A stretch of DNA of 64,000 nt from a bacterium (GCA_021800275.1 JAJYZB010000001.1:124001-188000); one strand, 5' to 3'; positions 8,298 through 63,509 are shown, counted from the stretch's first letter. A program made the numbers and translations. The notes: generated by a model from the sequence alone, not told the origin.

Positions 8298-8373
8298 AAA
8301 CCACCCCTTTAGAAAAATTATTTTTTTAATTTCATCTTGATTTATACCAACAGGCAGCTTTTCCTTCTAAATT

Positions 8374-8391
8374 TTATGATATAAATCATAA
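8374..8391. promoter_or_regulatory. FNR-like dyad TTATGAT-ATAA-ATCATAA
   Basis: Perfect 7-bp inverted repeat with 4-nt spacer (TGAT-N4-ATCA core) between divergent genes. Confidence 0.45.
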
Positions 8392-8465
8392 TTTATTAAA
8401 AAAAGAAAAGGGGTTTAGCTTCAAGTGATAAATCTTTTTAGTTAATATTGAAAAATGGAGGTATC

Positions 8466-9371
8466 ATGGGAAAACAGTCAAGCCGCTCTGCCGAAAGAAA
8501 AAAAAGAAAAGAGTTTAACTACCCCAATTTTTTTGGAATCATCTTAGCCCATATTTTCGCGCTCTGCGGAATCTGGTATCTGTTCATCTATGGGATTTCT
8601 CTCACGAATTGGATTCTTTTCGGAATTTTTTCGCTTTTAACCGGGTTTGGAATTACGATAGGATATCACAGAATGCTGACCCACCGAGGATTTCAGTGCA
8701 GCCAGCCGCTTCGCTGGGCTTTAGCCATCATGGGCGGGATGGCAGGAGAAGGTTATGAATATGAGTGGGTGGCTAATCACCGCGTGCATCATTTTTTCTC
8801 GGATCAGGAACAGGATCCCCATTCCCCCAGAGCATACCCAGGAATAAAAGGATTTTTATGGGCGCATATAGGGTGGCTGTTTTTTAAATATGAAAGGCCT
8901 GATCTCTATAAGACCTTTCAAGACTTGGATCGAGATCCAGTAACTCAGTGGCAGAGAAAATTTTATCTGCTTATCGTTATTTCAGGCTTTATCATCCCTT
9001 TTCTGATTTCTGGACTCTCGGGAATTTTAATTTCCGGATTTCTGCGTTTAGTGTTTGTCTGGCATTCAACCTGGTCAGTCAACTCTATCTGCCATTTGTT
9101 TGGCTCCAGGGCTAAAGATGCTGAGGGAAATCTTTATACAAGAGATGACAGCAGAAATAACATTTTAATCGCTCTTTTTGCTCTAGGAGAAGGATATCAT
9201 TCAAATCACCATTTCAGGCCCACCTGGGCTTACCATGGATGGGAATGGCACAACCTGGATATGAGCAAATGGATGATTCAATCTTTCGAATGGCTGGGCT
9301 TGATATGGAATGTGAAGAAACCTGTCATAGACAAAGGTCTGCTGATCAAAGAGATTCCAAAAATTGCATAA
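8466..9371 (+). CDS. Acyl-CoA / fatty acid desaturase (delta-9 type)
   Basis: Three His boxes HRMLTH, HRVHH, HSNHH; GGAGG upstream of ATG 8466. Confidence 0.85.
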   Translation: MGKQSSRSAERKKRKEFNYPNFFGIILAHIFALCGIWYLFIYGISLTNWILFGIFSLLTGFGITIGYHRMLTHRGFQCSQPLRWALAIMGGMAGEGYEYEWVANHRVHHFFSDQEQDPHSPRAYPGIKGFLWAHIGWLFFKYERPDLYKTFQDLDRDPVTQWQRKFYLLIVISGFIIPFLISGLSGILISGFLRLVFVWHSTWSVNSICHLFGSRAKDAEGNLYTRDDSRNNILIALFALGEGYHSNHHFRPTWAYHGWEWHNLDMSKWMIQSFEWLGLIWNVKKPVIDKGLLIKEIPKIA

Positions 9372-33360: not shown

Positions 33361-34653
33361 ATGAGCGAAAAAGCGACCCCCTTTAAACTTTACCCCTGGG
33401 TCTTCATCAGCGCAGCCGTTGTCTTATGCCTTCTGCTGTATGTTTTCCACCTCCCTTTTGCGCACGCAAAAAGCTTCGTTCTTTTTTCAGGACTGGCTGT
33501 TCTGATGGAATTCTGGGAAATCCAGCTGCCCAAATTCCCTAAAATCACAGTGGGAGATGCCCTGTATATCGCCAGTTTGTTTTTGTTTCCTCTCCCTCTG
33601 GTTTTAGGAATCGCCTGCATTGGAAAAATCGGAAAACTGGCTTATCTGAGAACCACTGACTCCCTGGAACTTCTCATTCTGACTCGAAGACTTGTGCTGC
33701 TGAGTTTGTCTGCCTTGTACTTTAAATTTTCCCAACTTTATGGGGCTTTTATTCACCCCCCTCATGTCAGCGCTCTGCAGCAGATTTCTCTCCTGTCCCA
33801 CCAAATCATAATCTTAGTCATCTGGATCGCGATTTATTCATTCGGACAATTTTTTCTTCTGCATTTCGAAAGAATGTTTACGCGTGGCACGACCCACCTC
33901 TCTTTAAACTGGAAAAACTTAAAAAATCTCTTTTTATCCAATGCCCTTTTAATTTTTCCCTTAGGCATTTTAATTTATATCCTTTACTCTCTGCAGTCTT
34001 CTCCTCTCCCCTACCCCCTCATCCTCCTCGTCCCCTCACTTTTAATCATTTACCGATCCATCAAAAATTACACCGAAAGCCTTGAAGCAGCCAAATCCAC
34101 AGTAGAAGCCCTGGCAGATGCCGTTGACAAAAGACTGGATTTCACCCATGATCATTCCCCCAATGTCTCTGACCTCTCGAAAAAAATAGCCCTGCAGCTC
34201 GGATTGAGCGATGAAGAAACCGAACTTCTGGTGCGCGCAGCCAAAATTCACAACCTCGGAAAAGTCGGAATCGCCGATCGCATTTTGAACAAACCTGACA
34301 GCTTGACAGAAGAAGAATTTAAAGCCATCAAAAAACATCCTGAAATCGGAGCCAAAGTCGCAGGGCAGCTTTCCATTTATGAACAGGAAGTCGAAATTAT
34401 TCGAAGCCACCATGAACATTTTGACGGATCCGGCTATCCTAAAGGATTAAAAGGAGAAGAAATCCCCCTGGGCGCCCGAATCCTCGGTGTAGCAGACGCT
34501 TATGAAGCCATGATCTCAGAGCGCCCCTATCGGAAAGCCTTCAGCAGAGAAGAAGCGATTCAGGAGATACAACTGAGCTCAGGAACAAAGTTCGACCCCC
34601 ATGTAGTCAGAGCTTTTGCAAAAGCTCTGGAAGAGGAAAAGTCGCGCGCGTAA
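33361..34653 (+). CDS. Membrane HD-GYP-like signalling protein with HN in place of HD
   Basis: Multi-TM N-terminus; AAKIHNLGKVGIADRIL...HHEHFDGSGYPKGLKGEEIPLGARILGVADAYEAM. Confidence 0.8.
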   Translation: MSEKATPFKLYPWVFISAAVVLCLLLYVFHLPFAHAKSFVLFSGLAVLMEFWEIQLPKFPKITVGDALYIASLFLFPLPLVLGIACIGKIGKLAYLRTTDSLELLILTRRLVLLSLSALYFKFSQLYGAFIHPPHVSALQQISLLSHQIIILVIWIAIYSFGQFFLLHFERMFTRGTTHLSLNWKNLKNLFLSNALLIFPLGILIYILYSLQSSPLPYPLILLVPSLLIIYRSIKNYTESLEAAKSTVEALADAVDKRLDFTHDHSPNVSDLSKKIALQLGLSDEETELLVRAAKIHNLGKVGIADRILNKPDSLTEEEFKAIKKHPEIGAKVAGQLSIYEQEVEIIRSHHEHFDGSGYPKGLKGEEIPLGARILGVADAYEAMISERPYRKAFSREEAIQEIQLSSGTKFDPHVVRAFAKALEEEKSRA

Positions 34654-34657
34654 AGAA

Positions 34658-37600
34658 ATGAAAAAGTCAAAAATGGAACCCAGAAATCAATTTATTTATG
34701 GTTTTCAAGAACTAGACTTTCCTGCCAATACCGGATGCGAAGTTTCAATAAAAATTTTATTTTTTAAATTGACTTTCATCATCACGGGAATTTCATTGCT
34801 CAAATTTAGAGAAAAAAAGTTTATAAACTCTTTTTCTCTATCAGTAAAGATGACCTCTGGCTTTAAGCAGGATTTCCTATCTATAATTTTCAGTAAATTA
34901 TTCAATATGTTTCTCCCTACCCCGAAATTTCATGTGCAGCCTCAAAAAAATCTTATATTTCTGGGAGGAGATTTGTGGGAAGCTAAAGATGATGATTCTG
35001 CCTTTCTGATTGATTTAAACAACTTCCCATCAAGCTATTACACTCTGCAAGCTAACATAAATCTCGATTCCGACTTAAAAACCAATAAACTATCCAAACT
35101 TAATCCTAAAATCATTCTTGAAAAAGAAGACAAATCATGTATAGATAGCAATGCTATTTTTTCAAGTTTCTGGAAAGAAAAACTAAGCGCTCATTTTTTT
35201 ATTCCTGAAGGAACCCAAAAAATCTATTTTTACCCAATTGGTAAACCAACAAAATTCCATCTAAAAGCGCTTAAATTATTCTATAAACAAGAATCCGAAC
35301 CCAATAAATTCCTGAATTATCTTCCGAAACTCACCTCAGAAAGCTTAATTGTAAAAGAAACACCGTGCAGCAACAATAACAAAGCCGCCCTACCAACCAG
35401 GACGGAAAAAAACAAAATTGCGGTTGTTATAGGAATGCACAGAAGCGGTACTTCTCTGGTGAGTAGAATTCTCAATATTGGAGACTATTACTTGGGAGAT
35501 GAAGATGAATTATTAGAACCTGACTTTGACAACGAGAAAGGATTTTGGGAAAACAAAAACTTTATGAGAATTAACGAAAGAATTCTCATGACTTTTCAAG
35601 GAGATTGGGACAAGATTCCCGATTTTCCAAAAGATTGGCTGTCTCAAAAAGAAATCTCGGTTCTAGCAAGTAAAGCAGAAGAAATGGTAAAAAAATTTGC
35701 TCAATACCAACGGTGGGGATGGAAAGATCCACGAACCACGATAACCCTTCCATTTTGGAAAAGAATAATCGCAGAAGTTTTCCCTGAATCTCAAATTTAT
35801 TATATTCTCTGCATCAGAAACCCAATAGATGTCGCAAAATCTCTTCAAAAAAGAAACAATATGACTTTAAATCAAGGCTCTCTGCTGTGGGAGGAATACA
35901 CAAAAAAAGCAATTCAATACACAGCCAACGAAAAGCGAATTTTCGTAAATTATGAAAATTTCTTTTATCATCCTGAAGCTGAAATAAAAAAAATCGATGA
36001 CTTTCTCATGGACTTCTGGACCCCTGATCAATATGCCGCATCCATAAATTTTATTGATCAGAAAATAAGACATCAAAACTCATCTTATCTGGATTTGTTT
36101 GAAAACGATGAAATACCTGAATCTTCTAAGCTTCTATATGCTGCAGTTTTAGAGGGAGAAAATTTAGTGAAACTCAAGGAAGAAATTAAAATTCCAGTCA
36201 CAATTTCTCATTCCTGCTATCCTCCAATCCTTGACGACAATCACCCTCAAAAGGCACCTAATGGCAATAAAGTAACTGCTGTGGTTGAACGACTCTTGAG
36301 CAAAATAAAAGAAAATAAAACCGTTAAAAATAAGAAATTGAGCAGTTCCTTAAAACGAGATGAAAAAATGTTGTTTCGTTTTTTTACCCAAAAAAAATAT
36401 GAAGAAGCATTAAAAACCGGAAATAAAATTTTACAGGAATCATGGCTCAAATTTCAAAATGGAGACCAGGGGGCTATTCGAAAAGCCAACGAAGTCGTCA
36501 ATAAAATAATAAAAAATATTGCTGCAGAGTTAGAACTCCGAAAAAAGTTACCCATTTTATCTTCCTCTCCAAATTCTGAAAACAAAATAAAACTTGCTTT
36601 TATTAAAGGTGGAGTGGTTCCTAATGATGGACCAACTATGGTTCTGCTGAGCTTCTGCAGAAACTACGATAAGAATAAGTTTTCTCTCAAAGTTTATGAC
36701 ACCTATCCCCCTGAGTTAAGTCGATTTCCAAACTATCCTTTGTTCGAATTAAACAGATGGAAAATCCCTTACTTTTCATCTGATTTCTCTGATATATTGG
36801 ACAGAACAGAAGAAATCGTGACAGAAATCCAACAAAATAACACAGATATCACAGTTATTTTTGGATCAATGATGGATATTCCGTGCAGATTAATTGCCTG
36901 CTGCAAACCAGCAAAAGTAGTGTTTCATTATGATTTAATGCAAGATACTGGGCTCATTGATGTTTTCGATCTGGTCATTGCAACAGAAAAAAATCAACTT
37001 GAAAGGCATACTGATAAAAAAGTCTCTTGTTACATTCAAGGGGAACCTTCAGACATCAAAAGTCGAATAGAAGAATGTAATAGCAATGGCTTAATGATTC
37101 AAAAATGCTGCCTGGGGTTTAAACAGGATTCTACTATTCTAGGAACTTTTGGACGCTTAACTAAAATTACCAACCCTGCTTTTCTTACAATGCTCGCCGA
37201 ACTACTGAGAGAGTTTCCGCAAACTTGCTATATAACTGCTGGACCAGGAACAGCAGAAGAAATAAATGAAATCCGTAAACTAGAAGCATCTTTTCCTTCG
37301 AGAGTAAAATATTTAGGTAATATTGGCTACCTTGAAGCGAACCTGCTGCTTTTGCTGGACATTTACCTGAATTCTTTCCCACTCCCAGGAGGACAATCCT
37401 TTGTTAATGCTCTGGGAGCAGGCCTGCCAGCTATCAGTATGCCCTCAAAAGGGGGAATTCCTATGGGAAACACTTTCAGCGATGATATTGAGGGATATCC
37501 ACAGTTTCCCTCAGGAAAATTAGAAGATGCATACACAGCATTCGCTAAAAGAGCAGTAAAAGAAGTGGAATTTAGAAATGAACTAAAGAAAATTTGCAGC

Positions 37601-37714
37601 GATTACTTTAAAAAATATCTGGATGCAGAACTTAGGGTCCCAGTTTATGAAGAGAAATGGGTAGAAGTTTTGGAAACAAAAATAAAAAAAATGAAAGTCA
37701 ATGTCTGCATCTAA
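34658..37714 (+). CDS. Sulfotransferase - GT1/GT4-like glycosyltransferase fusion
   Basis: IGMHRSGTSLVSRIL 5'-PSB-like motif mid-protein; C-terminal GTAGPGTAEE...YLNSFPLPGGQSFVNALGAGLPAI pattern; in-frame ATG 34658 avoids overlap with upstream gene. Confidence 0.7.
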   Translation: MKKSKMEPRNQFIYGFQELDFPANTGCEVSIKILFFKLTFIITGISLLKFREKKFINSFSLSVKMTSGFKQDFLSIIFSKLFNMFLPTPKFHVQPQKNLIFLGGDLWEAKDDDSAFLIDLNNFPSSYYTLQANINLDSDLKTNKLSKLNPKIILEKEDKSCIDSNAIFSSFWKEKLSAHFFIPEGTQKIYFYPIGKPTKFHLKALKLFYKQESEPNKFLNYLPKLTSESLIVKETPCSNNNKAALPTRTEKNKIAVVIGMHRSGTSLVSRILNIGDYYLGDEDELLEPDFDNEKGFWENKNFMRINERILMTFQGDWDKIPDFPKDWLSQKEISVLASKAEEMVKKFAQYQRWGWKDPRTTITLPFWKRIIAEVFPESQIYYILCIRNPIDVAKSLQKRNNMTLNQGSLLWEEYTKKAIQYTANEKRIFVNYENFFYHPEAEIKKIDDFLMDFWTPDQYAASINFIDQKIRHQNSSYLDLFENDEIPESSKLLYAAVLEGENLVKLKEEIKIPVTISHSCYPPILDDNHPQKAPNGNKVTAVVERLLSKIKENKTVKNKKLSSSLKRDEKMLFRFFTQKKYEEALKTGNKILQESWLKFQNGDQGAIRKANEVVNKIIKNIAAELELRKKLPILSSSPNSENKIKLAFIKGGVVPNDGPTMVLLSFCRNYDKNKFSLKVYDTYPPELSRFPNYPLFELNRWKIPYFSSDFSDILDRTEEIVTEIQQNNTDITVIFGSMMDIPCRLIACCKPAKVVFHYDLMQDTGLIDVFDLVIATEKNQLERHTDKKVSCYIQGEPSDIKSRIEECNSNGLMIQKCCLGFKQDSTILGTFGRLTKITNPAFLTMLAELLREFPQTCYITAGPGTAEEINEIRKLEASFPSRVKYLGNIGYLEANLLLLLDIYLNSFPLPGGQSFVNALGAGLPAISMPSKGGIPMGNTFSDDIEGYPQFPSGKLEDAYTAFAKRAVKEVEFRNELKKICSDYFKKYLDAELRVPVYEEKWVEVLETKIKKMKVNVCI

Positions 37715-39350
37715 GTTAATCAGTATTTTGGTCCCTGTCTATAATACAAAACCCAACCTACTGATTGACATGATCGAATCAGTTATTCATCAGACTTCTG
37801 ACCAGTGGGAATTGTGCCTGGTCAATGATGGATCCAAAGCACCATTGGTTGACTGCATTATAAAATATTATAGAGATAAAATTAATATCGAACAAGGAAA
37901 AAGTAAAATAAAATATTTTAATCTTGACTTCAACCATGGAATTGCCATCGCATCAAACGTCTGCCTATCCATGGCTGAAGGTGATTTCTGCGGTCTGCTC
38001 GATCATGATGACTGCCTGGAACACACTGCTGTAGAAAAAGTTATGGCACTGTTCAATGGAAGTGAAGAAATTGATCTTGTTTACACAGATGAAGATCAGA
38101 TAGATGAAAAAGGGGAATGCTCCAATCCCATATATAAAACTGACTTCGGATTAGAATCGGTTTTACACTGGATGTTCCTTAATCATTTCCTCGTTATTCG
38201 AACGGATATTCTAAAAAAAATCGGTGGTTTTTCTATTTACTCAAACCGATGTCCTGACAATGACCTGGTTTATAAAATTCTAGAACGAACCAATAAAGTC
38301 CACCATTTAAAAGAAATATTATATCATTGGCGTCTGACAGAAACTTCAAGCAGCATGAAAACCAATAAAACCGCAATCATTGAAGATTCTTTATCAGGTC
38401 TCAACCGCTATTTATCAAGAAATGGGAAATCTGCAACGGCCAGTCAGCCAGATAGCGCGGTAAAATATAATGTAGGATTTTTCCAGACAAGTCTAAAAAA
38501 AATCGAAGAAGAACATATTTCCAACCTGCGTAAGAACACAAATATAGTAATACTGCATAATGGAAATTCTACTGACCTTATGAGAATGACACAATATTTT
38601 TATACTTTTTTTAAAATGAAAGTGTATGCTGTTATTTCATACAAAAAAGTGTTATGCGATTTGCAAAGCACTGTGTCAGAATACTACGATATTTTAAATG
38701 AGGAGGCAACCACGATTGCCCAAATTATTAATTCTAGCGGCAAACCCTTTACCCTGATCATGTCTGATCTCTTATTTTTTAAAAACCATGATTGGGTTAA
38801 AGAAATCCTTTACTGGAAAAATCAACACGGAGTCGCTGCGGTGACCGGTAAACTCTTAAAAAACGAACAACTCCTTGACTCTGCTGGACTAACGGTCCAA
38901 AGCGACTTCCCTTATTTCTTAAAAATCTTGAATTCTTCTAATACTGACACCGTCCTCTACCATCACTGCGCGAATAGAACAAGAAATATTTCAATAGCCT
39001 CTAAAGACTTGATTTTCCTAAGCAACGACTGTATAAAAGAGATAGGAGGGATACGACATTCACTATTCCCCAACGAGTATTACATCAGCGACTTATGCTT
39101 AAGATTTATCCAATCCAATTATCGTATCGTTTATTCACCTTATATTCAAGCACAATATCTAGATTCCAATATTTTTACCCGAGAAACAGAGAAACTATTT
39201 CATGAAGGAGAACTTTTTTTCTCTGAATGGCAAAAGTTTGTCGATCCCTATTTCCCGAATATCAACATGAACTCAAATCATAACTCCCAAACAATGACCT
39301 CCAAAAAGCAGTATTCCATTCTAAACTCTTGTGGGGCCTCGCTAACTTGA
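37701..39350 (+). CDS. Family 2 glycosyltransferase
   Basis: SILVPVYNTKP...DDGS-like NDGSK, LDHDDCLE. Confidence 0.85.
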   Translation: MSASKLISILVPVYNTKPNLLIDMIESVIHQTSDQWELCLVNDGSKAPLVDCIIKYYRDKINIEQGKSKIKYFNLDFNHGIAIASNVCLSMAEGDFCGLLDHDDCLEHTAVEKVMALFNGSEEIDLVYTDEDQIDEKGECSNPIYKTDFGLESVLHWMFLNHFLVIRTDILKKIGGFSIYSNRCPDNDLVYKILERTNKVHHLKEILYHWRLTETSSSMKTNKTAIIEDSLSGLNRYLSRNGKSATASQPDSAVKYNVGFFQTSLKKIEEEHISNLRKNTNIVILHNGNSTDLMRMTQYFYTFFKMKVYAVISYKKVLCDLQSTVSEYYDILNEEATTIAQIINSSGKPFTLIMSDLLFFKNHDWVKEILYWKNQHGVAAVTGKLLKNEQLLDSAGLTVQSDFPYFLKILNSSNTDTVLYHHCANRTRNISIASKDLIFLSNDCIKEIGGIRHSLFPNEYYISDLCLRFIQSNYRIVYSPYIQAQYLDSNIFTRETEKLFHEGELFFSEWQKFVDPYFPNINMNSNHNSQTMTSKKQYSILNSCGASLT

Positions 39351-39958
39351 ACAGTAAAATTTTAATTATTACAGGAAGTGAGGACCAAGGGGTTTCATGT
39401 CTGGCTAAATTGCTCAAAACTCAGGATATTTATTTTGGAAAAAAAGAATTCTTTCCCCCAGGAGATGGGAATCTTGAAGGATTCTGGGGACACATGAGTT
39501 TTCTTTCCATTAACACAAAACTTTTAGAAACTTTTCATGGAAGCTGGGATAACCCACCAATCTTACCAGAAAACTGGGAAAAAAATGAAACTCTAAAAAT
39601 GATTGAAAAACACGCAGAGAAATTAATCGAACAGTTCATTGATAAACCGCTGTGGGGCTGGAATGACTCTCGAACATCTTTATTTTTACCTTTTTGGAGA
39701 AACATTATCGTGAAAACTATTCCGAATGCAGAAATTTTTAGTATAATTTGTATTAGAAGACCGTGGGATGCTGCAGCTTATTTTGAAAATCATCACAACT
39801 TCGATACGGATAAAAGTATAAAATTATGGATCAGATACACTTATGATTCCTTAATTTACACAAAAAAAACGAGAAAACTTTTTATCGAATATGAATCTTT
39901 AACCCAAAAACCTCAGGATGAAATAGAAAGAATACATCATCTTTTAAAGGAGCTCTAA
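39329..39958 (+). CDS. Sulfotransferase-family protein
   Basis: Same fold pattern as the 34658 ORF (GYFGK..EGFWGHMSFLSIN...WGWNDSRTSLFLPFWR...CIRRPWDAA). Confidence 0.7.
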   Translation: MWGLANLNSKILIITGSEDQGVSCLAKLLKTQDIYFGKKEFFPPGDGNLEGFWGHMSFLSINTKLLETFHGSWDNPPILPENWEKNETLKMIEKHAEKLIEQFIDKPLWGWNDSRTSLFLPFWRNIIVKTIPNAEIFSIICIRRPWDAAAYFENHHNFDTDKSIKLWIRYTYDSLIYTKKTRKLFIEYESLTQKPQDEIERIHHLLKEL

Positions 39959-39959
39959 A

Positions 39960-41162
39960 ATGAAAAACCAGGAAATTCCATTTTTTAAACCCACGATAGA
40001 GAAAGAGGAAATAGAAGAAGTTGTCAACACGCTCAAAACCGGCTGGATAGGACAAGGACCTAAATGTGAACAATTTGAACTTAATTTTCGAAACTATATA
40101 GGAACAGATTATGCCGTTTCTGTAAGTTCCTGCACTGCAGGCTTACATCTCTCCCTGATCGCTCTCGGTATTGGACGAGGTGATGAAGTCATAACAACTC
40201 CTTTGACATTCTGTTCCACAGCAAACGCAATTGTCCATGCAGGGGCCACTCCTATTTTCTGCGATATTGAACCAAAAACTCTAACGATTGACCCTGAAAA
40301 AATAGAAGAAAAAATCACCCAAAAAACAAAAGCTATTATCCCTGTCCATCTTTACGGCTATCCAGCAGAAATGACCAAAATCCTAAAAATTGCTAAAAAA
40401 TACAATCTTTATGTTGTGGAAGACGCAGCGCATGCGGTTGAAACTGTCTATCACAACCAAAAAATTGGAGCCATCGGCGACACAGCAGTATTCAGCTTTT
40501 ATGCTTCTAAAAACATAACCACAGGAGAAGGGGGGATGATTACTACAAATAATGAAGCAGTCGCTGAAAAACTGAAAATCCTTAGGCTGCATGGTCTGGA
40601 TAAAGACGCATGGAAGAGATACAAAGCAGGACAATACAAACATTATGAATGTGTCATGCCAGGTTACAAGTTTAATATGACTGACATTCAGGCTTCACTT
40701 GGAATTTGGCAGCTGAAAAAAGTAGAAAAATGGCGAAAAATGAGAAAACAAATCGTCCAAACATACAATGAGCTTTTTAACACGTTGAAAGAAGTTCAAT
40801 GTGTCGTAAGGCCAGGAGAGGATACTCCAGACAATGTAGTCCAAGCCTATCATCTTTTCCCAATAATGGTTAAAAACCCTCATGATCGCGATCACTTATT
40901 AACCTATTTACAGAGTAATGGTGTTGGAGTTGGGGTCCACTTTAAACCTGTTCACCAATATACTTACTACCAGTCAATCTTAAAAAACGAATCTTATCCA
41001 ATAGCAGAAAATGCTGGGGATCGACTGCTCTCCCTTCCTCTTTTTCCAACTTTGCATCAGGAAGACGTAAAAACCGTTTTTGAAGTTGTACAAAACTTTT
41101 TTACCAGCAAGAAACAAATTCACTTATTGAACTCAAATGCGCAAGATACTGTTAAAAAATAA
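39960..41162 (+). CDS. DegT/DnrJ/EryC1/StrS sugar aminotransferase (PseC/ArnB-like)
   Basis: FFKPTIEKEEIEEVVNTLKTGWIGQGPKCEQFE; VVEDAAHA; SFYASKNITTGEGG Lys. Confidence 0.9.
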   Translation: MKNQEIPFFKPTIEKEEIEEVVNTLKTGWIGQGPKCEQFELNFRNYIGTDYAVSVSSCTAGLHLSLIALGIGRGDEVITTPLTFCSTANAIVHAGATPIFCDIEPKTLTIDPEKIEEKITQKTKAIIPVHLYGYPAEMTKILKIAKKYNLYVVEDAAHAVETVYHNQKIGAIGDTAVFSFYASKNITTGEGGMITTNNEAVAEKLKILRLHGLDKDAWKRYKAGQYKHYECVMPGYKFNMTDIQASLGIWQLKKVEKWRKMRKQIVQTYNELFNTLKEVQCVVRPGEDTPDNVVQAYHLFPIMVKNPHDRDHLLTYLQSNGVGVGVHFKPVHQYTYYQSILKNESYPIAENAGDRLLSLPLFPTLHQEDVKTVFEVVQNFFTSKKQIHLLNSNAQDTVKK

Positions 41163-41264
41163 AAAAAGTGCTCCAATAAATACAATTGTACAGAAAATTC
41201 TAAAAGGTGATTCAATAGTCGCTGAGAAAACTTACACTAATGTAAAAAATAAGAGAAAGCAAGT

Positions 41265-42134
41265 TTGAAGAATCAACCTCAACATAAAGTTGTACTTATC
41301 ATTGGAATGGCGCGCAGCGGCACATCCATGATGGGAGGGGTTTTTTCCAAATTAGGAGTCTATTTAGGAGAAAGTCTCGCAGAGCCATCCCCAATGAATA
41401 AAAAAGGGTTTTTCGAAGATCAAGAAATTGTAAATTTAAACGACCAATTTCTGCTAAACCTAGGAGTGGGATGGCCTAAACCTCTTCCACTTCCTATTGG
41501 ATGGGCATCCAGCCAAAGCGCCACTGCCTACGAAGAAAAAATTCTAAAAATTATTGTAGAAAAATTCTCAAATAAACCAGTTTTTGCAATAAAAGATCCA
41601 ACAATTTCCCGTCTCCTGCCGATTTGGGTTCCTCTATTATCCAAGTTAAACATCGAACCTATATTTATCCAAATGGTGCGCAATCATTATGAAGTTTACG
41701 CCTCTATGACTTATGGAGAAGGGGGGGGAAAAAGAATAAAACCGGAACAAGCCTGTCTTTTATGGCTTCGACACAATATCGAAGGCGAGAGGTACACCAG
41801 ATGGAAAAAACGAGTTTTTGTGAAATATGATGCAGTACTAACGAATCCGCCTGAAATGATAAAAAAAATTGCTGAATTTTGTGAAATTCCTATCCCTGAT
41901 TTAAGTAACGATGAACCACTCAACTTCATTGACATCTCAATGAAACATTATAATTTCACTTCTATCCCTGTCACATTTACTTCCCCATTTTCTAATTGGT
42001 CGGATCGCATTTACAAATCTTTCCCGGACTTTGGAAATCTTCTTGACACTTCTGTTTTAGAGGAAGTCAACAACGAAATCGAAAAAATGGATCAATTTAA
42101 TTTTTTATCAGGAATATATGAGTTTCCGAAATAA
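41265..42134 (+). CDS. Sulfotransferase-family protein
   Basis: VVLIIGMARSGTSMMGGVFSKLGVYLGE. Confidence 0.8.
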   Translation: MKNQPQHKVVLIIGMARSGTSMMGGVFSKLGVYLGESLAEPSPMNKKGFFEDQEIVNLNDQFLLNLGVGWPKPLPLPIGWASSQSATAYEEKILKIIVEKFSNKPVFAIKDPTISRLLPIWVPLLSKLNIEPIFIQMVRNHYEVYASMTYGEGGGKRIKPEQACLLWLRHNIEGERYTRWKKRVFVKYDAVLTNPPEMIKKIAEFCEIPIPDLSNDEPLNFIDISMKHYNFTSIPVTFTSPFSNWSDRIYKSFPDFGNLLDTSVLEEVNNEIEKMDQFNFLSGIYEFPK

Positions 42135-42168
42135 AATGCAGCGATTCCGCAGCAGTACTTGCGTCTAG

Positions 42169-43425
42169 ATGTCGAACAACTTACAATCTAGCATAATTAT
42201 TCCCGTATGGAATCAATGGGAATATACAAATAACTGTATTAATGCTCTTCTTAAAACAGTCTCTCCTGAAAGCACAGAAATTATTGTTGTTGACAATGGT
42301 TCTAGTGATAAAACGATCCAAGAGCTGCAGAAATTTTCCGCTAAATTCAACTATTTTAAAATCATACGCAACCAACAGAATTTAGGCTTTGCAAAAGCCT
42401 GTAATCAAGGAGGGCATTCAGCATCCGGTGAATATCTTATTTTCCTCAATAATGACACGGTTCCAAACCAAAGATGGCTGGAAAATCTCATTGAAGCAGT
42501 CAAAATTGATCCAGCCATTGGAGGAGCTGGAAGCCTGCTCCTTTATCCGAATGGAACCATCCAGCATGCTGGAATGGGACTGCTGCATCATCAAATGATC
42601 GCTACCGACAGTAAAATCATGGGACCTCTTTCTCTCCCTTATCATCTCTGGAAAGGAGAACAACCGGCAGCAACCATAAAACATGGATATCAAATTGTTC
42701 CTGCTTTAACTGGAGCATGCCTTTTAATTCCAAAAAAATATTTTATTGAAATAGGCGGCTTTGATGAAAATTTTAAAAATGGATTTGAAGATATTGATCT
42801 CTGCTTCAGACTTCGCAGTAAAGGACTGAAAATGCTATTTTGTCCTTTCAGCGTTTTAACCCATTTTGAATCAGTCACACCAAACAGATATGAACGGGAA
42901 AAACAAAATCTCATCTATTTTTTACAAAAGTGGGCACACTATCTAAATGGAACGCCTGATGCGGCACTTAAAGCACACCTGCAAAATGTTTCCTCCTCAT
43001 CTTCTTTTTGGATAGATATCTCAGGAATTTATTTTAATCAATCCGATCCTCGTAAAAAAATCTCTGCTCTTTTAAAACAAGTTAAAGAAAAGACAACCCC
43101 AGTGATATGGGATGCCTATCCTTTGCCAAATCTTAAAATTACAGTAAAACTTTTTTTCGTGAAAGCAACCTTCATCCTTCCCTTTGCAAAAGGACATGGA
43201 TTCTACACTGTTCCACTAAACAATGCGAAAAATTTTACTTTTAATAAAAAATTCCAATATTTTTCTTTTTTTTCAATTCAAATCTCACGAACAGGTGAAA
43301 TCCAAGAAGATTTTACTACCAAATTCCTTCGCAAAATATTCTTCTTTCCCCTTAAATTTTTAAATAAACGAAAACCTCTACAGATTCCTCAAGAGGAAAA
43401 ATTATTCATTTTGGGCTCTTCATAA
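42169..43425 (+). CDS. Family 2 glycosyltransferase with extra C-terminal domain (apparently truncated)
   Basis: SIIIPVWNQWEYTNNCINALL, DNGSSD, FLNNDT, GGFDENFKNGFEDIDLCFRL. Confidence 0.85.
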   Translation: MSNNLQSSIIIPVWNQWEYTNNCINALLKTVSPESTEIIVVDNGSSDKTIQELQKFSAKFNYFKIIRNQQNLGFAKACNQGGHSASGEYLIFLNNDTVPNQRWLENLIEAVKIDPAIGGAGSLLLYPNGTIQHAGMGLLHHQMIATDSKIMGPLSLPYHLWKGEQPAATIKHGYQIVPALTGACLLIPKKYFIEIGGFDENFKNGFEDIDLCFRLRSKGLKMLFCPFSVLTHFESVTPNRYEREKQNLIYFLQKWAHYLNGTPDAALKAHLQNVSSSSSFWIDISGIYFNQSDPRKKISALLKQVKEKTTPVIWDAYPLPNLKITVKLFFVKATFILPFAKGHGFYTVPLNNAKNFTFNKKFQYFSFFSIQISRTGEIQEDFTTKFLRKIFFFPLKFLNKRKPLQIPQEEKLFILGSS

Positions 43426-44048
43426 TATCAATAGGAAAATGCAATTCGACTTGCCGTATCAGCAAACTTACATTACAATTGAGTCAGAAACCTTGATGAG
43501 CTTCAGCCTATTTTCTGTGCTTTTGAAAGGATTTTTTCAAAACTTAATTTTCTAGACTTTTATAATATTATCCGGGTTAAAAAACATTTGATTGAGAGCT
43601 GCATATTAAGTTATGCAACAAAACAAAAGAAACGCCAGGACTTACGGTTCTTTACTCGTACACTTTTGGGTGGCTCAAATCTGCTGAGAAGAATTCTTAT
43701 GCAATTCAAAGGAGGCTCTATTTGAGCGCATCGTAAAGATTAATTCTAAATGATCGGGAACACAAGGAAAGTCAAAATTTAAAATATCAAAACAAAAAAA
43801 TAAAATTTTCGTTGTTGTCTCAAAATTTTTACCCAAAAAACAGGTTAAAAAGAAGTGTAAAAGAAGATACATTAAAAAATGGAGATTCAATTTATGCCAA
43901 AATTAATGAATCAATTCTGGCTGCAGTTCTATCACATGGTTATTAATGGCTTATTCTAGCTGTTTTAAGTGCTAGTATTAGAAAGAGCTGAAGGGATGGA
44001 CATAGCTAAAAAAAACTGTCGTAACGGGGTAGGGTTAAAAACGGCCAT

Positions 44049-44885
44049 ATGACGGAAACTAGAAACCACTCGGAGCCAAATTTCTTTCCCAATAAATCTC
44101 CAGAGACCATGCGTCTCGAATTTCGTCTCAGAAATGCCATAAAGAATCTTCCTGAAGAACTTCGATGCACACTTTATGAAATTTTTACTGAAGCACATCC
44201 TCAACTCGCTAAAACAAAGTTTACCATTAACTTAGAACATATGATCGTCAGACAGAACGGCCGCGATATTTTCTTCCCAAGACCCATCCCTGAAATCATA
44301 TATGCTCATATTTCTTGCGGATACGAAGAATGGTTGCAACGAAAATACGCGCTCCCTGGATTTGTAGAAGTCGAACTAGGTGATATTGTCGTCGATTGCG
44401 GGGCCTATGTTGGTGGTTTTTCATTAAGCGCGGCTCGCGTGGCCTCGCAGGTCCACGCCTTTGAGCCGGAAAGCGCCAATTTCAATTGTCTTCATATTAA
44501 TGTTGAAGGATTGCCAAACGTCATAACAAACAACTGTGGACTCTTTAAAGAAACTGGATTCGTCAAATTAAACCTTTCTAAAACGAACTGGCAGCATTCC
44601 TTGCTGCAACCCAAAGACGGCACCATAGACACTAGACCCATTAAAGTAGTGTCTCTAAAAGACTACTGTGAATCCCACGGCGTAACAAGGATCGACTTTG
44701 CCAAAATCGAAGCAGAGCAAGTTGAATTAGAAGTTTTAGAGGGACTTGGTCCCATTAAGCCCCGAAAATTAGCGATTGATGGACATACTGAGGGGCAGAA
44801 TAGCCCACTTATCGAATTACTAACGAGGCGCGGATATGAAATAAAACAACGAGGACAGGTCGTTTTTGCCCGCGAGAAATTATGA
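44049..44885 (+). CDS. FkbM-family methyltransferase
   Basis: ELGDIVVDCGAYVGGFSLSAARVASQVHAFEPESANFNCLHINVE. Confidence 0.85.
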   Translation: MTETRNHSEPNFFPNKSPETMRLEFRLRNAIKNLPEELRCTLYEIFTEAHPQLAKTKFTINLEHMIVRQNGRDIFFPRPIPEIIYAHISCGYEEWLQRKYALPGFVEVELGDIVVDCGAYVGGFSLSAARVASQVHAFEPESANFNCLHINVEGLPNVITNNCGLFKETGFVKLNLSKTNWQHSLLQPKDGTIDTRPIKVVSLKDYCESHGVTRIDFAKIEAEQVELEVLEGLGPIKPRKLAIDGHTEGQNSPLIELLTRRGYEIKQRGQVVFAREKL

Positions 44886-57307: not shown

Positions 57308-59869
57308 TTACCTTTCATCCACAATGCGCCTGAGTTTTCCGCTGCCTGGAACTCTCGGGAATGAGGCAGCAGGCTGAATCGAGATCTCCAGATCGAGAAT
57401 TTTTTCTTCTACGACCACTTCTTTGAGATCCGAATATCCTTCCAGGATCGCGGATCTGACAGCTTTTTCCTCCAGTCCGCTTTCACGAGAGATGCAGAGC
57501 CTCAGTTTCTCTTTTCCAGCCCTCTCTCCGGACTGCAGGAGGATCTGCAGTTCTCCTGTGTACTGGAACTCTTCTTCTAAAATTCGTTCGAATTTCGCGT
57601 AATTAAAAAACATGCTGCCAATTCTGAAAACATCCCCATGGCGTCCCAGGAGTTCGAATCTAGGGGTTTTTCTGCCGCAGGGGCAGGCTCCAGGGAGAAA
57701 ACGCGCCATATCACCGATCTCATACCTTTCTAATTTCTGACCTGCCCGAGCCAGTGAAGTCAGAACCACTCTTCCTGGTTCTCCGAGGGGGGCTGGCATA
57801 TCTTTTTCTAAATCTAAAATTTCCATGATTTGAAAGCTGCTGAAAAGATGATGAACACTTCCTTCACAGTAGGAACATTGAAATCCAATGGGTCCTGCGT
57901 CCACACTTCCATAAGCAGCAGATCGGATCCATTTCACTCCGAAAGTTTTCTTAAAATATTTTCTTTTCACTTCACTGAAATGTTCCCCTCCATAAAAGAT
58001 CTTTTCAACCACAGGATGTTTTTTTAAAAATACTTCATTCTGACCAAAAAGCTGAATAAGATAAGAGGGCATTCCTAAAAGCGTATTCACTTGATGGGCA
58101 GCGATCATTTCAGCCACCATTTTAGTATCAGGATGAGCCCCCATGGGAAATTGAACTGCTTTTAAATTTTCCAGCACAGAAAAAATGCTGACAAATCCTC
58201 CGTAAAGCCCTCCTGCATACAGTAAATTCATGCAGCGATCTTTTATGGGATCAAGCCCAGCGGCAAAAAGGCCGTCTGCCCCTGCTGCCATTTGAAGGTG
58301 ATATTCCTCATAACTGAAAATCGAAAGCTTGGGATCCCCGCTGCTCCCTCCGCTTTTAAAATACAAATGGGCATACTGAGGCTCCACTGCAGCTGCTTGA
58401 AACTCTGCTTTACTCATGACCTTGACTTTAGGAGGCTGGTGAGAAACTGAAGTCAACTCTGAAAAAGTGGAAATTCCGTCAGTTTTCTGATCCGACTGAA
58501 GGCTGGTTCTTCGAGCATATCTCTGCAGCGCATAAACCCCGTCATGAGGTTCTCCTGGATAACTGTCCAGCATCTGACCAACAGGGGTAATTCTGAGAAC
58601 TCCAGAGCTGACAAGGGCTTCACTAATTTCAGCTAAAGACTCAAGGCCGCAAGACAGCCCAACAGTTTGGAGGTAAAACCGAAAAGGGCGCAGCGATTCT
58701 AAAATCTTATTTCGTTTTATGGGTTTTACCCAGATCGTTCGAAATAAGGGGGATGCTCTTAAAGCGCTGGCGTGATCAATTAAAATTCTCCAGCTTTTAT
58801 CAGGAGTTTCGATCACTTCAGTTAAGCCAAGACAGGATTCCAGACGGCAGAGTTCTGTCACAGAAGTGATCTCCGCCTGTTCTTGAAGAGACGGAATTTT
58901 TGCGGGAATGGTCGGAGAAACTTTTTCAAGTTCTGCAGCAAACTGGTGAGCAAACCTTTTCAAAACTTCCTGATTCGATGTTTCTACATACACACACTGA
59001 GGGCTGGAACATGCCTCCTGATCCAGAAGACAGCAGTCTCTCGCAAGCCGTCCGATCTCCTCTTTATTTTCCAGACTTTCTAAAGCAAAATACGCGAATG
59101 AGATTTTAGGTCCCCAATCAATAAATCTGACAGAAGAAGGGGCAAGAGCTCGAATTCCTTCAATCCCTTCTTCCCCTCCCCATGCAGCAATTCCATCTGC
59201 ATAAGAGAGGATCTCTTTTAAGAGATCCTGCTCCCGCGAAGAGATACGACATGCAAACACTTTAGAAGAGATTGTTCCAGATTCATCTAAATCACCTAAA
59301 AATTTTAAAAAAAATTGAGCAAATAAACCATCAGAACCGCCGGTTTTGAGAAAATTAACATTCCCCGCTAAAAGCCCTTCAACAACAGACAAAGCTCCAA
59401 CGCTGAAGGAATTCGTTGGAGCTGTATGCACCAAAAATCCGAGAGGAGCCCATTTCTCAAAAATTGGAAGCCGTCTATCCGGACGAGAAAAATCAAAAGG
59501 GTTGTTAGTTCCAAGTTCTCTTTCCAGTTTCTGCTCTAATTTTTCTCGTTTCATAAACTCGGAGATTTCTTGAAAACTATTTGAAATGTCTAAACTCTCC
59601 ATCCCAAAATCTTCTGCCAGTGATCTGGATAAAAGAGCATAAATCTTTCCTTTTTTATCCCTCAGTTCCTGACTTAAAAGATCGCAGGCGCTCAACAGAT
59701 GAGACGTTTCCAGTCGAACCTGCAACCCGGCTTCAAGAACACTCGAAAGATTTTTGACAGCAGAGCGAAGCTCTAATTCATCCAGCCATTCCCCCTGCCA
59801 CAAATGCGGGTTAGCCCTCTCCTCTCCTATCCTCTCAACTCCTGAACCTAAACCCCTACAGGCTGTCAT
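57308..59869 (-). CDS. LuxC-type acyl-CoA/acyl-thioester reductase fused to PaaK/LuxE-like adenylate-forming ligase
   Basis: LuxC nucleophile region CLLDQEACSSPQCVYVE; C-terminal YFKSGGSSGDPKLSIFSYEEY...YGGEHFSE...RVPGSGKLRRIVDER. Confidence 0.8.
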   Translation of the reverse strand: MTACRGLGSGVERIGEERANPHLWQGEWLDELELRSAVKNLSSVLEAGLQVRLETSHLLSACDLLSQELRDKKGKIYALLSRSLAEDFGMESLDISNSFQEISEFMKREKLEQKLERELGTNNPFDFSRPDRRLPIFEKWAPLGFLVHTAPTNSFSVGALSVVEGLLAGNVNFLKTGGSDGLFAQFFLKFLGDLDESGTISSKVFACRISSREQDLLKEILSYADGIAAWGGEEGIEGIRALAPSSVRFIDWGPKISFAYFALESLENKEEIGRLARDCCLLDQEACSSPQCVYVETSNQEVLKRFAHQFAAELEKVSPTIPAKIPSLQEQAEITSVTELCRLESCLGLTEVIETPDKSWRILIDHASALRASPLFRTIWVKPIKRNKILESLRPFRFYLQTVGLSCGLESLAEISEALVSSGVLRITPVGQMLDSYPGEPHDGVYALQRYARRTSLQSDQKTDGISTFSELTSVSHQPPKVKVMSKAEFQAAAVEPQYAHLYFKSGGSSGDPKLSIFSYEEYHLQMAAGADGLFAAGLDPIKDRCMNLLYAGGLYGGFVSIFSVLENLKAVQFPMGAHPDTKMVAEMIAAHQVNTLLGMPSYLIQLFGQNEVFLKKHPVVEKIFYGGEHFSEVKRKYFKKTFGVKWIRSAAYGSVDAGPIGFQCSYCEGSVHHLFSSFQIMEILDLEKDMPAPLGEPGRVVLTSLARAGQKLERYEIGDMARFLPGACPCGRKTPRFELLGRHGDVFRIGSMFFNYAKFERILEEEFQYTGELQILLQSGERAGKEKLRLCISRESGLEEKAVRSAILEGYSDLKEVVVEEKILDLEISIQPAASFPRVPGSGKLRRIVDER

Positions 59870-61056
59870 ATTCCCCTCCTCTCTTTCCCCAGCATTTCTG
59901 CTGCAGTGACAGCGCAGCTTTTATTTTTCGAAATCCCTGCTCTTCCATGCACGACAAAATAAGGGGTTTTTAAAGGACAGGGGCAAGAGTCCCCTTCATG
60001 CCAGGACGCTAAATCTCCCATGAGAACACTGCAGGCAGGAACAGAGGTAACCACTGGAGTCACAAAATGAAGAAATCCTTTCAAACCAGGAGGAAGAGGT
60101 TCAAGAGTTTTCACGTCTCGAATAAAAACTTTAGACCAGATTGGAACATGAAATTCATGCTGCTCACATTCAATATAAGGGATGCTGTGTTCCACAGAAC
60201 CAAATCCATCCCGAATTCTGTGATCTGGAATTCCTAACTGTTCTGTGACCCTGTGATACAGTTCTCTTTTATCAATCTGCTCTTCAGCATACCCTTTCCA
60301 ACCCCCTCCTAAAAAGATAAGAGAGTCCGGAGAAAGTTCTAGAGGAGGGATCTCCAATTCTCTCATCCGCTCTAGAGTAAAATGAAGAAAAGCGGGAAAC
60401 CCGAAAATCCGCACAGGGAGTTTTTCTTTAGAATATTGAATCAGCTGCTCAATACAGCCAAACCGATCAAATTCATGGGATCCGCTGCCAGTCCGACGCA
60501 GAGCATAAAACAGATGATTCACGGGGGCATATTGGCAGAGAAAATTATCGGTATAAGCGGTTCCCAGTTTCAGGTCTGGCACAGGCTCATAAGAGTATAA
60601 AAGATAATTGGCAGGCTGCTGAGGAGTTGTCCATCCATAAAACTCAAAAATCCAGTCAATCATTCTCTGGGTTCCCCGCAGGGTCCAATCATCAAAAAAA
60701 AATTGAGATTTTTGTCCTGTTGTTCCAGAAGAAGTGGCATGAAGGACGATTTTATCTTTTGAAATTGAAAGCTCTTCATGAACTTTAAAATAATTTGCCA
60801 GAACAAATGGGACTTTAAAACAATCTTTGACAGTTTTCAAATGTTCAGGGGTAAATTCTCGAAACTCGATCAATTTTTTAAAAAATAAATTGTTCCGACT
60901 GTGCCACTGGACAATCTCTTTCATCCCTTCCACAAACAGCTCCTCAGAATGAGGGGTGATCTCATACGGAGTGTTCAGATCACACAGGGCTTGAACACTA
61001 TTTAAAGCCGAGGGATCAGGAACCTGAATCTTATTCATAATCTTTAAACACCTCAA
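59866..61056 (-). CDS. LuxE-like acyl-protein synthetase
   Basis: HATSSGTTGQKSQFFFDDWTLRGTQRM; C-terminal GRAGISKNKSCAVTAAEML; 4-bp overlap with LuxC fusion. Confidence 0.8.
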   Translation of the reverse strand: MRCLKIMNKIQVPDPSALNSVQALCDLNTPYEITPHSEELFVEGMKEIVQWHSRNNLFFKKLIEFREFTPEHLKTVKDCFKVPFVLANYFKVHEELSISKDKIVLHATSSGTTGQKSQFFFDDWTLRGTQRMIDWIFEFYGWTTPQQPANYLLYSYEPVPDLKLGTAYTDNFLCQYAPVNHLFYALRRTGSGSHEFDRFGCIEQLIQYSKEKLPVRIFGFPAFLHFTLERMRELEIPPLELSPDSLIFLGGGWKGYAEEQIDKRELYHRVTEQLGIPDHRIRDGFGSVEHSIPYIECEQHEFHVPIWSKVFIRDVKTLEPLPPGLKGFLHFVTPVVTSVPACSVLMGDLASWHEGDSCPCPLKTPYFVVHGRAGISKNKSCAVTAAEMLGKERRGI

Positions 61057-62182
61057 GGGTTTCTAAATACATGCCCTTCCATAAATTCACATATTGATCA
61101 ATATATGGCTTAAAAGCCTGTTCAATTTGAATTCCTCGAAAATTGAGAGGTTCCATGGTTCGGGTCATGACCACAAAATCATACGTTTTCCCTTTGACTT
61201 CTCTCATGGAAGGATAAAGAGCAGAGGGAAGAAACTGGGACCGCAGCATCACTTCCACTGCCTGCAGCCGATCCGCTCCAACCAGAACTTCCACGTACGA
61301 AACTCCAAGGCTGTGCAGCTCATCCAAAAGCGCAGGAATCACATCCTCAAGTTCCTGCATCTGGGGATTAAAAGAAATCAACGTGCAGTATCCATCAGAA
61401 TGATTAAAAAAAGCAAAAATTTCAATTTCCCCTTTTTCTTCTGCTAAAAGCAGATTTGGAGAATGGAATGGATAAAACTGACTGTAGGGATCAGTCACCT
61501 CTTTTTTAAAGCGGCGGAAAACATAATGAGGAGCAAAAATCGCTTCAAAAGAGGCTTCTCTCCGTTTTGAACGTTTGGAAAGTCCATTCACAGCCCCAGC
61601 GCTTTTTGGAATCTCAATTTCAGGCAGCCTTTCTTTCACCACTTTATACAGAGGAACCAATTTCTCCGGAATCTTTTCAATAGGAACCCTTGTGTCCAAA
61701 ACCCCTTGTTTAAATTTGACTAAAAGGGTTGTGGTTTCGTACGTTTTCAGTTTATGGGCATTAGGAAAGATCCCAAGAGGCAGATACCCTTCTCTCAAGC
61801 AGATCAATTGGGGTCCAATGCTCTGAGTTCGAGTGGTGGTATAAATTGAATTAAGAAACCCTTCCGGACCAATCATCCAATTTCCGTGCGATAAAAGCTG
61901 AGATCCAATTCCTGATTTTCGATAATCCGGATGAACCACAAGGGCAGCTGCTTTCCCTACTTTGTTCCCTCGATCCAGCTCAAAAACAATGGAGCCGACA
62001 ATCAAATCATTTTTTGAATCTCGCGCTGTCAGCCACAAGTAATCTTCAGATTGAACGGCTTCCGCCATTTTTTCAGGATCAGTCCCATAAACAATAGGAT
62101 AATCTCTGCCGTAAACTAAAAAATAAAGTTTTAAAAGTTCATCAGTATCTTTCAAAACTGCGGCCTGAATGTCAATTTTCAT
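61031..62182 (-). CDS. GNAT-family acyltransferase
   Basis: AAALVVHPDYRKSGIGSQLLSHG. Confidence 0.75.
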   Translation of the reverse strand: MKIDIQAAVLKDTDELLKLYFLVYGRDYPIVYGTDPEKMAEAVQSEDYLWLTARDSKNDLIVGSIVFELDRGNKVGKAAALVVHPDYRKSGIGSQLLSHGNWMIGPEGFLNSIYTTTRTQSIGPQLICLREGYLPLGIFPNAHKLKTYETTTLLVKFKQGVLDTRVPIEKIPEKLVPLYKVVKERLPEIEIPKSAGAVNGLSKRSKRREASFEAIFAPHYVFRRFKKEVTDPYSQFYPFHSPNLLLAEEKGEIEIFAFFNHSDGYCTLISFNPQMQELEDVIPALLDELHSLGVSYVEVLVGADRLQAVEVMLRSQFLPSALYPSMREVKGKTYDFVVMTRTMEPLNFRGIQIEQAFKPYIDQYVNLWKGMYLETLEVFKDYE

Positions 62183-62192
62183 AGAGCCCTTT

Positions 62193-63509
62193 TCATGCAG
62201 CCCTTTTCAGATCAGCTCTCTTAAACCCTTGGGAAAAAGCCAGAGAAAAAGCCGCCAGAATCACCACTGAGCTGCAAGATACCGCCAAACTTTTCACAGG
62301 AACATCTTCAATCAGGGCTCCTGTTAAAGCCATTGAAACCGGTAAAGAAGCCACAGTGATTAAATTCACCACAGCCATCACACCAGGCACATCCTGAGGT
62401 TCTGGAACACTTTGAAAAAAGTTCAAAATCATCACATTGGCAAAAGAGAGAAAAAAGCCGAGAATCCCCATAAACAAAGACCCCCAAAAAAGCCCTTTTG
62501 TAAAAGAAAAAGCTAGATAAGCTGCTCCAGTGAGAACGGCTGACAGAGTGATCTTTTTCCATGCAGCAGTCCCAGAAAATGAAAAAAATGAAAGAAGAAG
62601 GGTTCCTGCTAAAGTCCCAACTCCTAGAAAAACTTCGAGCGCTGCTAATCCAGCAATCCCTTTCCCATAAACATTTTTAGTGTACCACGGCATAAAAACC
62701 ATGATCGGAGCTAAAAAAAGATTAATCACAAGAAACCGTCCTAACATTCCTGAAATCACAGGCTCATTTTTCAATATCTGCAGAGTAGATTTAGGCGCAG
62801 GAGAAAGAATCCCCTTTCCAGCGACTGGAAGGACGGCTTCATTCTCTGTAATGGGTTCGCCAGATGCTGCAAGGGCTGTCTCAGGTTCTGGAAGGGGTGT
62901 TCCAATTTTCGTCTTGAGTTTAATCCCTGAAGCCAGAAGCGCTGAAAAAAGATAGCTGACTCCATTGGCGATAAGAAGACCCTCTAATCCAAGAGCTGAA
63001 TAAACAAGGGCAGAAGACAGGGGCCCAAGGACATTCCCAAAAGAAAAACAGGAATCCAGAAGAGCAGTCAGTTTATCCCTTTTTTCGCCCGGTGGAAGCA
63101 TCTCGACAGGCAGGCTCAAGATCGCGGGATTAAACAAAGCCCCTGCAGTGTTAGAGATAAAAATAGAAAGAAAAAGAAGCAGCAGAAGATCGACTGAAGT
63201 TTTGAGATAAAACACAGCCCCTCCTGCTGCCAGAAAAAGAAAACCCCGAAAAGCATCTGCCCCAATCACTGTCCGCAGCGCCCCTTTTTTCTCTATCCAT
63301 TTCCCAGAAGAAGTGGAAAGCAGCAAATGAGGCAGAGCGCTGATTCCAATAAACCAGGGGATCCATTTGGGGCTGAACTGAACAGTCAGCACCCAGATCA
63401 TCCCAATGGTCATCATTTTATCACAGGCTTGAGAGATCAGCTGCCCCCCAAAAACTTTCTGCGCATTGGAGTCATTGAGAATAAAGCTGTCTTTCTTAAA
63501 GCTGCCCAT
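62193..63509 (-). CDS. MFS transporter (enterobactin exporter/LplT-like)
   Basis: About 12 hydrophobic segments; GKWIEKKGALRTVIGADAFRGFLFL. Confidence 0.75.
   Translation of the reverse strand: MGSFKKDSFILNDSNAQKVFGGQLISQACDKMMTIGMIWVLTVQFSPKWIPWFIGISALPHLLLSTSSGKWIEKKGALRTVIGADAFRGFLFLAAGGAVFYLKTSVDLLLLLFLSIFISNTAGALFNPAILSLPVEMLPPGEKRDKLTALLDSCFSFGNVLGPLSSALVYSALGLEGLLIANGVSYLFSALLASGIKLKTKIGTPLPEPETALAASGEPITENEAVLPVAGKGILSPAPKSTLQILKNEPVISGMLGRFLVINLFLAPIMVFMPWYTKNVYGKGIAGLAALEVFLGVGTLAGTLLLSFFSFSGTAAWKKITLSAVLTGAAYLAFSFTKGLFWGSLFMGILGFFLSFANVMILNFFQSVPEPQDVPGVMAVVNLITVASLPVSMALTGALIEDVPVKSLAVSCSSVVILAAFSLAFSQGFKRADLKRAA

Follow-up and report, generated by a model that had tools for sequence, protein, structure and literature searches.

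A probable leup-type operon, related to the leupeptin genes of Klebsiella, in an uncultured bacterial lineage

Gene content and organization

The window analyzed here is a stretch of 64,000 nucleotides of bacterial DNA (GCA_021800275.1 JAJYZB010000001.1:124001-188000), with positions counted from its first letter. It comes from an uncultured lineage whose phylum also takes in genome records labelled UBP9 and CPR1. Four tightly spaced open reading frames (ORFs) lie on the minus strand at 57308-63509, exactly where an initial annotation of the DNA had placed four packed genes. The first gene of the operon (62193-63509; 438 aa) encodes an MFS exporter and is followed on the same strand by a gene for a predicted LeupD-type tandem-GNAT N-acetyltransferase (61031-62182; 383 aa), a leupA homologue encoding a LuxE-like acyl/peptidyl-protein synthetase (59866-61038), and a leupB homologue whose product joins a LuxC acyl reductase to an adenylate-forming, PaaK-like ligase (57308-59869; 853 aa). 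Read from a TTG codon, the LuxE ORF spans 59866-61056 and encodes 396 aa, which is the numbering used below; the protein probably starts instead at the ATG at 61038 (MNKIQVPDPS...). The initial annotation had listed overlaps of 4 and 26 bp and a gap of 10 bp. The 4-bp overlap and the gap stand, and the GNAT/LuxE overlap is reduced from 26 to 8 bp because homologues suggest the ATG start. Promoter and terminator scans gave no signal clearly above that of shuffled sequences, PADLOC returned no defence-system match, and no RNA family from Rfam was matched across the window. Elsewhere in the window, 13 kb from the operon, reading of the sequences at 34616-44885 suggests glycosyltransferases, sulfotransferase-like proteins, a DegT-type aminotransferase and an FkbM-like methyltransferase.

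The LuxE protein matches PF04443 (E 1e-24) and is the sole LuxE copy in the 2.46-Mb genome. Its best match among solved structures is the LuxC-LuxE complex 7xc6. Cys381, in the C-terminal KNKSCA motif to which attention had already been drawn (codon 59914-59916, minus strand), is invariant in 20 aligned LuxE/LeupA proteins, two bioluminescence LuxE among them, and aligns with the C-terminal Cys of true bioluminescence LuxE (Photorhabdus-like).

The fusion contains both a LuxC domain (PF05893, E 1e-86) and an AMP-binding domain, so that the reported joining of a DQEACSS-bearing LuxC to a second adenylate-forming domain is borne out. In NCBIfam, its C-terminal half is nearest to PaaK/DVU_1553-type ligases. 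Two residues are invariant in 30 aligned fusions, from which one row taken from a plasmid record was left out, namely Cys287 of the LuxC domain (DQEACSSPQ; codon 59009-59011, minus strand), which falls within the stretch aligned to the active-site Cys of 7xc6 LuxC, and Lys845 of the ligase domain (codon 57335-57337, minus strand), which belongs to the C-terminal GK motif of adenylate-forming enzymes. The closest solved structures are 7xc6 for the LuxC half and BT_0428/PaaK for the ligase half. When the whole fusion was modeled with AlphaFold (pLDDT 89), the best fold matches were likewise 7xc6_A and the BT_0428/PaaK ligases. The C-terminal half shares its fold and motifs with PaaK-type ligases (BT_0428 4r1l, PaaK1/2, AjiA1, NatL2) but differs from them in being fused to LuxC and in carrying Asp (D657) at the A5-type motif, where PaaK enzymes are generally known to have Glu.

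The GNAT protein has GNAT Pfam matches and aligns with the LeupD family by hhalign (probability 98%, 267 columns), whereas direct sequence comparison with LeupD gives marginal similarity. Its AlphaFold model (pLDDT 92) is closest to solved folds that include ArsN and phosphinothricin acetyltransferase, both amino-acid N-acetyltransferases, and tandem GNATs. The residues and folds of LuxE, the fusion and the GNAT are consistent with working enzymes. The exporter matches MFS_1 (PF07690, E 2e-21) and TIGR00900 (E 2e-22) and appears DHA3/H+ antiporter-like, NCBIfam placing it near H+ antiporters. An MFS gene occupies the same position in Bacteriovoracaceae (34% identity) and in the sister genome G001 (66%).

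Relationship to leupABCD

Li et al. 2020 reportedly described a leupeptin operon, leupABCD, in Klebsiella michiganensis/oxytoca, Photorhabdus and Xenorhabdus. The gene set in the window suggested a leupeptin pathway of this non-NRPS kind, one that combines N-acetyl capping with ligases and a reductase, and this was tested by locating published leup primers in genomes. The literature presents leupABCD as the leupeptin biosynthesis operon (PMC8283571, PMC11480411, PMC11212599), the secondary sources from which the roles of single Leup proteins were taken, and describes it with a transporter alongside (PMC8283571); leup coordinates and leupA/leupB PCR primers are available for K. michiganensis (PMC8283571). 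The products reported for Klebsiella leup are leupeptin, a lysine analogue and leupeptin-derived pyrazinones (PMC11480411), and PMC11212599 attributes the leupeptin of Xenorhabdus bovienii to separate AMP-dependent ligases and a reductase. A literature search for LuxC/LuxE with GNAT or PaaK yielded just lux reporters, flagellin islands and the Mycobacterium mel2 locus.

The leup primers had no match in the first 398 Enterobacteriaceae genomes, and the blaOXY marker did not lead to a K. oxytoca-complex genome. One exact match each for leupA_f and leupB_r was found in locus L170 of a 6.2-Mb genome whose genus was recognized as Klebsiella through a tonB primer. The primers span 7905-9139 of this locus, or 1,235 bp, which is the published amplicon length. 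L170 encodes, in order, a LuxE homologue of 378 aa (which holds leupA_f), a LuxC-ligase fusion of 802 aa (which holds leupB_r), a PaaK-like ligase of 446 aa and a GNAT of 305 aa, with an MFS transporter adjacent to the set on the opposite side of LuxE. Since the primers locate leupA and leupB and the gene order supplies the remainder, leupA corresponds to the LuxE homologue, leupB to the LuxC-ligase, leupC to the PaaK-like ligase and leupD to the GNAT. A doubt about this link arose because frame 1 of leupA_f gives MKIAIHN, which is unlike a LuxE start, and was set aside since the primer is internal to the gene and in another frame. Two further genomes, Photorhabdus-like because they hold luxCDABE, also carry the four-gene leup set.

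Over 384 aa, the LuxE of the window shares 48% identity with Klebsiella LeupA; for the fusion and LeupB, the figure is 39% over 762 aa. A homologue of LeupC is encoded elsewhere in the same genome, on contig C8 of G000 (L045:8750-10072). It is intact, with all motifs conserved, and is 38% identical to Klebsiella LeupC and 69% identical to the second ligase of sister genome G001, which lies directly downstream of the operon there. This resemblance to an operon-adjacent ligase indicates that, in the genome of the window, leupC has become detached from the operon. The gene list first drawn up was therefore incomplete: it overlooked the essential second ligase, which sits outside the window. Compared with Klebsiella leupABCD, the shared parts are a LuxE-like A, a LuxC-ligase B, a PaaK-like C, a GNAT D and an MFS gene alongside. 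The window differs in its unlinked leupC, its gene order (MFS-D-A-B), its longer GNAT (383 versus 305 aa) and an exporter from another MFS subfamily, which has no BLAST match to the Klebsiella leup-adjacent transporter.

Distribution and phylogeny

To place the operon among its relatives, the fusion alignment was scanned against 85,488 species genomes, in which at least 468 relatives were confirmed, and 80 loci were kept. These loci belong to at least nine phyla; many are MAG contigs, and some taxon labels (archaeal, Nitrospirota) may be binning errors. LuxE is present in 77 of the 80, that is, in every locus with room for one; the three remaining fusions start at most 610 bp from a contig end, where one of them (L088) shows the end of a LuxE gene. 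A second PaaK-like ligase occurs in 69 loci and a GNAT of the window's kind in 59. Where this type of GNAT is lacking and the flanking sequence suffices, most of the loci have a different GNAT, which stands by itself (L099, L104, L105) or follows a HATPase domain; L090, for one, lies outside the loci checked. MFS genes flank many loci and MATE genes flank two. The fusion, LuxE, GNAT and MFS genes thus recur together, and their joint recurrence in unrelated phyla takes the gene set far beyond chance. The initial annotation had held that a set not conserved together would count against its proposal, and on this point the proposal stands. In two Bdellovibrionaceae loci (L069:9007-11508 and L116:8803-11297), LuxC and ligase are encoded by two neighboring genes in place of the fusion, which shows where the border between its domains lies.

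Among the matches listed, the cassette is common in Streptomyces and Bacteriovoracaceae. It also occurs isolated among unrelated neighbors, including on two Salmonella IncF-type plasmids and one Streptomyces linear plasmid. For example, a stand-alone leup-type cassette of LuxE, LuxC-ligase, ligase and GNAT (L126:12614-18372) is found on Salmonella enterica plasmids CP054717 and CP053580, the former typed as IncFIB/IncFII and conjugative, where the annotation reads merely acyl-protein synthase, AMP-binding protein and similar. No near match to this cassette was found in E. coli.

In the fusion tree, the window and G001 fall among 77 leup-lineage rows that are split from 11 other rows with an SH-aLRT of 100, a value that applies to that split. 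The 11 outside rows include 885-aa fusions from the window's own phylum. This grouping within the leup lineage, apart from the fusions of its own phylum, suggests that the window operon was acquired horizontally.

Two further observations concern these relatives. The window's phylum contains a second lineage of GNAT-LuxE-LuxC/ligase operons with the 885-aa fusion (L029, L030, L032, L036, L038, L041), mostly without a nearby second ligase. In many leup-type loci, the LeupD GNAT (hhalign 99.9% to LeupD) follows an RsbW-like HATPase_c_2 domain within one fused protein, for instance at L046:5186-6676, L054:12790-14283, L086:12813-14339, L098:6831-8207 and L100:13512-14978. These fusions are found in Pseudomonadota, Bacteroidota, a Methanomassiliicoccus and a Lachnospiraceae MAG. 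At several of the loci, a SpoIIE phosphatase (with a dCache sensor in two) and STAS-like genes adjoin, a partner-switching module tied to the biosynthetic cassette, and the Methanomassiliicoccus locus also encodes a MATE exporter with a C-terminal HATPase_c_2 domain (L098:11838-13559).

Proposed pathway and alternative explanations

Taken together, homology and gene content make it very probable that the window carries a leup-type (leupeptin-like) biosynthetic operon, with a peptide aldehyde as the predicted product that is made and exported. The initial annotation had proposed that a carboxylate is activated, reduced to an aldehyde and exported independently of luciferase, and the conserved gene set and the homology to leupABCD lend support to this outline. 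It had also regarded the system as uncharacterized, which no longer holds, as tracing of the leupA/leupB primers shows the core genes to be homologous to leupABCD. By its sequence relationships the system is of an already known kind, a distant relative of leupABCD in which leupC has moved and the GNAT and exporter have diverged. Because of this homology, an N-acylated peptide is the most likely substrate, ahead of a fatty acid.

In the proposed pathway, the LeupD-type GNAT would N-acetylate the first amino acid. By analogy with the reported leup pathway, the PaaK-like ligases, one in the fusion and the other encoded by the leupC homologue on C8, would form acyl-adenylates and thereby yield a short N-capped peptide acid. 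LuxE (LeupA) would use ATP to convert the peptide carboxylate to an acyl-AMP and place the acyl group on its C-terminal Cys, as expected from the chemistry of LuxC-LuxE. The acyl group would then pass from this Cys to Cys287 of LuxC, both of which are observed, and its reduction with NAD(P)H would release the aldehyde, which the MFS protein would export. By analogy, the product may inhibit serine/cysteine proteases. It is possible that it is leupeptin itself (Ac-Leu-Leu-argininal), and it could also carry other residues, since identities of 38-48% do not fix the substrate.

A different exported product of leup-lineage enzymes, such as a single N-acyl amino aldehyde or an aldehyde that cyclizes to a pyrazinone signal instead of serving as a protease inhibitor, is unlikely but deserves consideration: the second ligase lies apart from the operon, divergence is seen in both GNAT and exporter, and Klebsiella leup itself also yields leupeptin-derived pyrazinones (PMC11480411). 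Against this, the genome keeps an intact leupC homologue, 69% identical to the linked copy of G001, and the motifs are all conserved. A much smaller probability attaches to fatty-acid reduction in the LuxC/LuxE sense, in which fatty aldehydes or alcohols would be made to supply lipids, wax esters or surface glycans modified with lipid; such a role has been proposed for the luxC/luxE genes of flagellin glycosylation islands. The LuxC and LuxE folds and residues and the glycosyltransferase region 13 kb away would fit this proposal, and flagellin islands hold luxC/luxE with acyl-carrier and ketoreductase genes (PMC7874193, PMC4875605). However, when ORFs were read over 50-63.5 kb of the window and just past the operon (the Pfam scan covering the four operon proteins), no acyl carrier protein, FabG-type reductase or glycosyltransferase was recognized in or beside the operon; moreover, homologues occur in isolated cassettes, on plasmids and in unrelated contexts, and the closest characterized operon is leupABCD.

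Given the LuxC and LuxE homologues side by side, a remnant of a bioluminescence lux operon might also be imagined, and the fold, the catalytic Cys residues and a presumed acyl-Cys relay are indeed shared with the LuxC-LuxE pair of 7xc6. In contrast to that system, the window has no luxA, luxB or luxD, its LuxC is fused to a ligase, a fusion that lux operons lack, and another substrate is expected. The absence of luxAB that had been remarked upon extends to the whole genome, in which a search for the bacterial-luciferase family (PF00296) gave zero matches (assembly 98% complete). The LuxE protein is also far nearer to LeupA (48%) than to Photorhabdus-like LuxE (about 20%). These data largely refute the idea of a lux remnant, to which we attach next to no probability.

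Peptide aldehydes beyond Klebsiella

Under the leup-type interpretation, a vague guess at an aldehyde metabolite becomes testable: the uncultured lineage is predicted to make an N-capped peptide aldehyde that inhibits proteases. The locus is of interest for this product, which can be tested for, and for how widely the family is spread. Systems of this kind are already known; new here is the presence of one in the window's lineage and in many other phyla, and the set of LuxE, LuxC-ligase, ligase and GNAT should be a good signature for genome mining. We see about an even chance for a broader proposal, namely that leup-type synthesis is a mobile four-enzyme cassette spread across much of the bacterial domain and an archaeal MAG, beyond the Gammaproteobacteria where it was described, that the product of the window copy is a new peptide aldehyde from an uncultured phylum, and that some relatives are coupled to SpoIIE/RsbW-like partner-switching through the HATPase-LeupD fusion.

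The predicted product is of the same kind as the N-capped peptide aldehydes antipain and livipeptin (PMC10548850, PMC11212599). Those compounds are NRPS-made, whereas the window has no NRPS modules and would rely on free-standing ligases and a LuxC-type reductase. Circumstantial backing for the leup interpretation comes from Streptomyces anandii: strain JCM 4720 carries the cassette (L076), and leupeptin and acetylleucine were detected in another strain by metabolomics at level 1 (PMC13364919). Streptomyces leupeptin is treated as NRPS-made in a recent peptide-aldehyde paper (PMC10548850); because the cassette is common in this genus while that paper assumes an NRPS origin, the cassette may lead to the true leupeptin genes of Streptomyces.
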